Assembly (NCBI GenBank): GCA_963169805.1
Contig: CAUJDY010000036.1
Span: 1-49,026, forward strand
Direction: 5' to 3'
DNA: 49,026 nt
Source of the DNA: Bdellovibrionota bacterium
GTDB taxonomy: Bacteria > Bdellovibrionota > Bdellovibrionia > Bdellovibrionales > JAEYZS01
A program made the position numbers and the translations under genes. Under the pieces are notes generated by a model. That model was not told the origin of the DNA and ran no database searches. It saw only the letters and a list, made by a program, of their open reading frames with translations. This document shows positions 15,505 through 16,551 of the stretch, one piece after another (position 1 is the stretch's first letter; every line of letters begins with the position of its first letter).

Positions 15505-16281
15505 ATGAATTTAACTCTACAAGTATGGCGCCAAGAGAATGCAACAAAAGAAGGACGTTTTGTAACTTACAAAGCAGATGATATTTCTCCTGACATGTCG
15601 TTTTTGGAAATGCTTGATCTCGTTAATGAACGACTCATTAAGGCTGGCGAAAGACCGATTGAATTTGAAAGTGATTGCCGAGAAGGAATTTGCGGATCCT
15701 GTGGATGTGTTATTAATGGACAAGCTCACGGACCTCTCCGTGGAGTGACAACATGTCAGCTTCATATGCGATCATTCAAAGATGGAGATACCATAGTTAT
15801 AGAGCCGTTTCGTGCGAAGGCATTTCCTATTATAAAAGATCTTGTTGTGGACAGAGGTTCATTTGATCGTATTATCCAATCTGGAGGATACGTAACAGTC
15901 AAGACTGGCCCTCAACCTGATGGAAATGCAACTCCTATTGGAAAAGACGTTGCAGATAAAGCGATGGATGCAGCTGCATGTATCGGTTGCGGCGCTTGTG
16001 TTGCTGCCTGCCCAAATGCATCTGCTGCACTCTTTACATCTGCCAAAGTTGCTCATATGTCTTACCTCCCTCAAGGCCAGGTAGAAGCTCATAAGCGCGT
16101 TGTGAATATGATTGCACGACATGATGCTGAAGGATTTGGAAATTGCACAAACATCGGGGAGTGCCACGCTGCTTGTCCGAAAGAAATTTCCATCCAACAC
16201 ATTGCTATCATGAAGAAAGAGTATATTTGCGCAGCAGCCAACTACGAACCAGAAATTCAAAGATCCGAGGGAGCGATTTAG
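15505..16281 (+). CDS. sdhB: succinate dehydrogenase / fumarate reductase iron-sulfur subunit
   Basis: Electron-transfer subunit of complex II with three iron-sulfur clusters. The 258-residue product carries the [2Fe-2S] ligands C58, C63, C66 and C84 ([12 protein letters not shown] ... TTCQLHM), then C159-x2-C162-x2-C165-x3-C169 ([12 protein letters not shown]), then C214, C220 and C224 ([13 protein letters not shown]), which share out between the [4Fe-4S] and [3Fe-4S] clusters. AAGGAG precedes the ATG. It follows sdhA after 60 bp and ends the operon, 10 bp before the inverted-repeat element. Confidence 0.96.
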
Positions 16282-16291
16282 TTTAATCTGC

Positions 16292-16551
16292 TAGATTTTT
16301 TAATTTCTTTTTAAGAAAATTGTCTCTTAAATCTCAAACAGTCCTCGCAGAGATGAATTTCTTATTCATTATTATGAAAAGTATGCTTGCGAGGGCAGCT
16401 CAACCACATATGTGGTTGAGCGCATGGATGGCCCAAGCATATGGTCACCACGATGGTGACTGCATCTTTTCTATAATAAAAAATAAGAAATTCAGTCTGC
16501 TGCGGAAATCGTTTGAGAGACAATTTTCTTAAAAAGAAATTAAAAAATCTA
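16292..16551. mobile_element. 260-bp element with perfect 36-bp terminal inverted repeats, MITE-like
   Basis: Bases 16292-16327 and 16516-16551 are exact reverse complements over 36 bp (outer end TAGATTTTTT). Pairing continues inward with interruptions: CAAAC 16335-16339 with 16511-16515, and GAATTTCTTATT 16355-16366 with 16482-16493. The centre has two hairpins. One is closed by TATGCTTG (16382-16389) and CAAGCATA (16434-16441) and holds a perfect 24-bp palindrome (16398-16421). The other is GTCACCA-CGA-TGGTGAC (16444-16460). It fills the gap between convergent sdhB and the transporter gene, and its outer TA overlaps the transporter stop codon. No transposase is present. A non-autonomous TA-inserting element, a structured RNA or a large bidirectional terminator all fit. 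Confidence 0.8.

Follow-up and report, generated by a model that had tools for sequence, protein, structure and literature searches.

Is the 260-bp inverted repeat that separates two convergent genes at positions 16,292–16,551 of the window (the whole analysed stretch of 49,026 nucleotides) a mobile element, a terminator or a structured RNA? All three had been considered in a preliminary description of this DNA. The element wholly occupies the gap between the genes named there as sdhB (stop codon at 16,281) and yhhQ, both names being consistent with the translations, and the yhhQ stop codon (16,549–16,551, minus strand) falls inside the end of the outer 3′ arm, as described. It is the sole inverted repeat of such kind in the window. 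The perfect 36-bp terminal arms reported earlier were confirmed: positions 16,292–16,331 and 16,512–16,551, 40 nt each, are complementary at 39 of 40 positions (98%) in the order of 36 perfect pairs, one G·U and three further pairs. The calculated folding energy of the element amounts to −125.3 kcal/mol compared to −52.3 ± 4.8 kcal/mol for shuffled sequences (z = −15).

Along the plus strand, the outer 5′ arm (16,292–16,331), whose sequence is specific to this copy, is followed by the conserved junction block 1 (TCTCAAACAGTCCTCGCA, 16,332–16,349, delimited by the alignment of copies), the likewise copy-specific inner 5′ arm (16,350–16,382), a conserved RNA head (16,383–16,465), the inner 3′ arm (16,466–16,494), the conserved junction block 3 (beginning with CTGCGGAA, 16,495–16,511) and the outer 3′ arm (16,512–16,551). 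The 12-bp and 5-bp blocks noticed previously do pair, not as separate blocks but as parts of one interrupted inner stem (16,354–16,386 with 16,462–16,494), which is imperfect, 33 bp long and 82% complementary. The head is organized as a three-way junction of P1, P2–P3 and P4. Helix P2, the 5′ strand of which (16,388–16,396) pairs with 16,431–16,439, contains a GA/AN internal loop, and one of its pairs (alignment columns 13/52) alternates between A-U, G-C and C-G among copies. Helix P3 (16,398–16,421) is identical with the perfect 24-nt palindrome pointed out before; in the window copy the tandem G·A pairs present in other copies are lost, which creates the palindrome. It is followed by CATGGATG (16,423–16,430), a candidate CsrA site of the form CAnGGAnG, and by hairpin P4 (16,443–16,461) with the loop ACGA. 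The 7-bp stem of P4 had been recognized but placed at 16,444–16,460; it is actually built from GGTCACC (16,443–16,449) and GGTGACT (16,455–16,461). In most copies, TCCTCGC of block 1 (16,342–16,348) is complementary to GCGAGGG of the head (16,389–16,395), and an alternative fold or a contact between two molecules is possible; a pseudoknot of this kind shows weak covariation and would need to span the 33-bp helix.

A DNA search of the element's own genome (2.38 Mb), as suggested at the outset, yielded dispersed partial matches, each lying in a complete element organized like that in the window; extended to 60 relatives, it gave no match beyond the own genome, and covariance models were required to detect the copies of relatives. 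A model built on the head (R1) recovered twelve copies in the own genome with E-values between 4e-32 and 1e-10 and no weaker match up to E = 10; the window head is matched at 16,371–16,477 with 99.1 bits. Each copy is laid out as outer arm, block 1, inner arm, head, inner arm, block 3 and outer arm, and in one of them (C4) part of the head is missing. The outer arms mostly comprise 40–46 bp (32 bp in C38, less regular in C152), while inner arms of 30–35 nt are found in every copy. Inside each copy the inner arms are complementary in about 97% of the aligned letters. Compared between copies, however, the same arm shows an identity of 0.54 against 0.50 after shuffling, the heads averaging 0.73, and outer-arm scores reach a mean of 8.5 and a maximum of 12.5 across copies against 26.5–50 within them. 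Judged from these comparisons, the stems are best explained as sequence-indifferent scaffolds of which pairing and length alone would be kept. In two copies (C56 and C97; L005 and L006) the outer arm spans the last codons and the stop codon of the neighbouring gene, and the opposite arm repeats this coding sequence inversely; copying of the gene end may have lengthened such arms.

Outside the own genome, the only other convincing R1 match (L034, 1412–1689; C89 of G001) stems from another genus of the same family. This single, diverged copy has a 50-bp perfect outer stem and an inner perfect stem of ca. 40 bp, carries GGA in each of the three head hairpins, and lies between convergent genes at a distance of 4–6 nt from both stop codons. 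A further R1 match in G039 (24.1 bits) is devoid of a long stem and looks like chance. An exact pattern scan produced four matches in the genome contigs, about the chance expectation and scoring at most 19 bits with R1, and none in the viral contigs. An orthologous gap comparable to that at sdhB was not available because G001 lacks an sdhB match and G002 carries another gene, and no element, after sdhB.

The alignment of eleven heads indicates that the conserved structure is selected as RNA. Paired states occupy 98.2% of the alignment cells, a value which falls to 26–37% when the alignment is slid by one base, and 13 of 26 pairs have changes on both sides, a level reached by none of 500 shuffles. 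The variable wobbles consist of eight G·U and no A·C (one invariant G·U left out). This covariation and the preference of G·U over A·C imply that the plus strand is the one acting as RNA. Mispairs in the arms of the same genome have no such strand bias, G·U (13) and A·C (9) being about equally frequent. Thus, among the original proposals, the structured RNA gains support from the multi-copy family, the extensive covariation and the strand-specific wobbles, and on this comparative basis we consider the element very probably to be a selected structured RNA.

In an Rfam search nothing reached the gathering score. The only meaningful sub-threshold match was RF01731 (TwoAYGGAY), in the element's own orientation, with 36.1 bits for L034, 32.3 bits for L008 and, as best value in the whole own genome, 23.1 bits for one of the copies; these scores have to be read with the reservation that long perfect stems raise the score against any long-hairpin model. 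Matches to miRNA models stayed below the cut-offs and represent generic long-hairpin scores. The RF01731 gathering score of 43 bits was not reached in any genome searched, the highest value elsewhere in the order being 42.3 bits. TwoAYGGAY RNAs have been proposed to bind CsrA and are characterized by tandem G·A pairs and an unconserved outer stem (PMC4333381).

Screening the order with RF01731 revealed nine genomes with sub-threshold matches, and those inspected share the plan of a long stem and a head with GGA loops. Applied to 141 genomes, a second covariance model (R2), derived from four sequences and therefore yielding rough E-values, was matched in 33, most of them belonging to one genus; three complete genomes contain 32, 31 and 13 copies. 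All matches examined by eye were convincing. Six R2 matches outside the order were recorded in G328, a member of another order of the same phylum. Among 43 aligned copies of this related family, 39 of 41 pairs display double changes, all four Watson-Crick types occur with hardly any restriction in the outer 14 pairs, and the stem wobbles are again asymmetric with 19 G·U and one A·C. In the heads, 31 of the 43 copies (72%) carry GGA in loop 7 and 36 (84%) in loop 9, but none in loop 8, counts that are partly expected since the family was reached via a GGA-containing model. Such a search model explains neither the contrast from loop to loop nor the presence of GGA in the independently found family of the window.

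Loci of the related family can be followed between species. Within the 400-kb sample of G069, R2 detected six elements, and G067 has a counterpart at the corresponding site for each of them; an additional G067 match at position 739,628 likely has its partner just beyond the G069 sample. Including the L075/L074 pair, seven of seven loci checked are common to two species. Between the orthologous copies the heads differ by 3.4% and the arms by 17.7%; the changed arm pairs comprise 25 double Watson-Crick compensations, 16 in which pairing is kept otherwise and 60 broken pairs. From the shared loci and the arm changes it follows that the stems change rapidly, the changes being compensated in part, and that at such distance the elements are inherited rather than hopping. 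Pairing may be restored by selection or by template switching. The earlier alternative that perfect arms reflect either recent origin or selection on pairing can therefore be narrowed: selection, or arm-to-arm correction, fits, whereas recent origin does not, as loci in the related genus are common to two species while their stems change with partial compensation.

Every one of the twelve copies in the own genome adjoins the 3′ end of a gene, and in most of them a stop codon is found within 30 nt of an arm. Five lie between convergent and seven between codirectional genes, and none between divergent ones. According to simple ORF calls, 13 of 26 related-family elements lie between convergent, 11 between codirectional and 2 between divergent genes. 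The right-hand gene and the element are convergent in 29 of 38 cases. Between codirectional genes the elements have no orientation bias, so that the adjacent genes do not ensure plus-strand transcription. Where two related-family elements lie at most 500 bp apart, they are arranged minus-then-plus with facing 5′ ends in 11 of 11 cases (G065, G062, G069, G070, G071, G074, G066, G067, G015 and G034), which suggests divergent transcription from a shared region. Gene position and back-to-back pairs together hint at independent transcription units; upstream of related-family elements promoter motifs were not in excess over controls.

This positional preference would also suit a bidirectional gene-end element, in which convergent transcripts form a duplex and either polymerase stops or RNase III sets the mRNA 3′ ends, the head having a different role, or none connected with CsrA. 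The placement of all twelve copies, the frequency of convergent and scarcity of divergent neighbours in both families and the ability of a palindromic stem to form from either strand speak in its favour. However, a plain terminator needs neither a head far more conserved than the stem nor a fixed strand, and the U-run of an intrinsic terminator, to be expected for the "extreme bidirectional terminator" originally envisaged, is absent in the copies read, i.e. after the stem of the window copy and in the downstream sequences of the related family. We regard a gene-end element as rather unlikely, yet deserving consideration. Dispersal over unrelated intergenic sites and copy numbers differing widely among genomes are reminiscent of a former or slow mobile element of no TA specificity, which spread as a palindrome, whose arms have since diverged and which is without present function. 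The lack of common termini, the persistence of all seven loci in two species, and the strong covariation and strand-specific wobbles, which mean that selection maintains an RNA, render this origin improbable.

The more specific idea of a TA-inserting (IS630/Tc1-like) MITE was founded on the TA at the outer ends, which is indeed present in the window copy. The other copies end in unrelated sequence; although they are dispersed as a MITE would be, they share neither the arm sequence nor terminal inverted repeats, and a TA target-site duplication is absent at their arm ends. As arms of different copies are hardly more alike than shuffled ones, a MITE defined by terminal repeats is ruled out, and we attribute next to no probability to the TA-inserting type. 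A feature of the DNA itself, e.g. a cruciform or single-stranded hairpin recognized by a recombinase or chromosome-organizing protein, could account for long near-perfect arms that change in concert, some of them in multi-base blocks, if replication template switching keeps the arms alike. Yet the excess of G·U over A·C, both in the heads and in the related-family stems, favours pairing of RNA, and we consider a DNA-level feature very unlikely.

For the structured RNA, the distribution of GGA motifs points to a possible partner. The motif CAnGGAnG, with varying n positions, is present in 12 of 12 copies, as part of an internal strand and not of a hairpin loop; elsewhere in the family GGA is found in the P4 loop of nine and in block 3 of eleven of the twelve copies. 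About one quarter of the candidate loops have CGA or a similar sequence in place of GGA, and these, including ACGA in P4 of the window copy, should not bind CsrA. The CsrA dimer has two RNA-binding surfaces, and CsrB and RsmZ titrate CsrA from one or two genes. The consensus obtained for CsrA by SELEX is RUACARGGAUGU, usually within a short hairpin loop (PMC7652899), and its GGA core is found in hairpin loops or single strands of both the twelve-copy and the related family. A csrA gene was identified in the own genome (PF02599 at C29, E = 1.4e-26) and in 20 of 20 genomes checked.

Transcription, CsrA binding and titration are inferred from sequence comparison, and we tentatively propose the following scenario. 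Transcription of the plus strand would generate a rod-shaped molecule in which the conserved internal loop connects two long duplexes of about 41 and 33 bp and the conserved three-way-junction head forms the cap. GGA motifs would thereby be exposed in loops and single strands of head and internal loop and might be bound by CsrA, such that the copies together titrate CsrA or position it at gene 3′ ends. On balance, we slightly favour a new TwoAYGGAY-like class of dispersed RNAs whose heads present GGA, probably to CsrA, and whose copies would jointly buffer it. A more elaborate version, a distributed CsrA sponge of a dozen to several dozen hairpin genes with two to three CsrA sites each, in which the duplex sequence drifts freely and arm-to-arm template switching keeps the pairing perfect, appears conceivable but is advanced with considerable reserve.

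The proposed class shares with TwoAYGGAY the long, poorly conserved closing stem, the three-way junction, GGA hairpin loops and tandem G·A pairs. L034 and most members of the related family (in their loops 7 and 9) possess two hairpins with loops of the AYGGAY type; the own genome has one site in an internal strand and GGA in P4 of nine of twelve copies. The proposed class deviates in the head layout, in the strictly conserved internal-strand GGA of the own genome, in a second long stem and a conserved junction block, and in its dispersed copies, which number from 12 in the own genome to 32 in the related genus. CsrB/CsrC and RsmX/Y/Z, to which the element has no Rfam match, would work alike by offering several GGA sites to CsrA, but they are encoded by one or few genes with many short hairpins each, in contrast to few sites per copy, many copies and very long stems. 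ERIC, REP/REPIN and NEMIS-type MITEs are likewise intergenic, multi-copy and hairpin-forming; their arm or terminal sequences are common to the copies, whereas here the arms are unrelated and conservation is limited to head and junctions. The idea of a sponge-like non-coding RNA has a counterpart in merRNA and other ncRNAs of Bdellovibrio, likely of the same order; in the passages searched of the respective report, merRNA is described as a single c-di-GMP riboswitch RNA and no repeat family was found (PMC3627812).

The elements form an abundant class of structured RNAs that Rfam 15 does not contain, and the order in which they occur probably includes Bdellovibrio. They allow the proposal of 2014 that TwoAYGGAY-type RNAs outside the Gammaproteobacteria bind CsrA to be tested directly, and their stems, free in sequence but not in pairing, provide a natural experiment on the maintenance of long palindromes.
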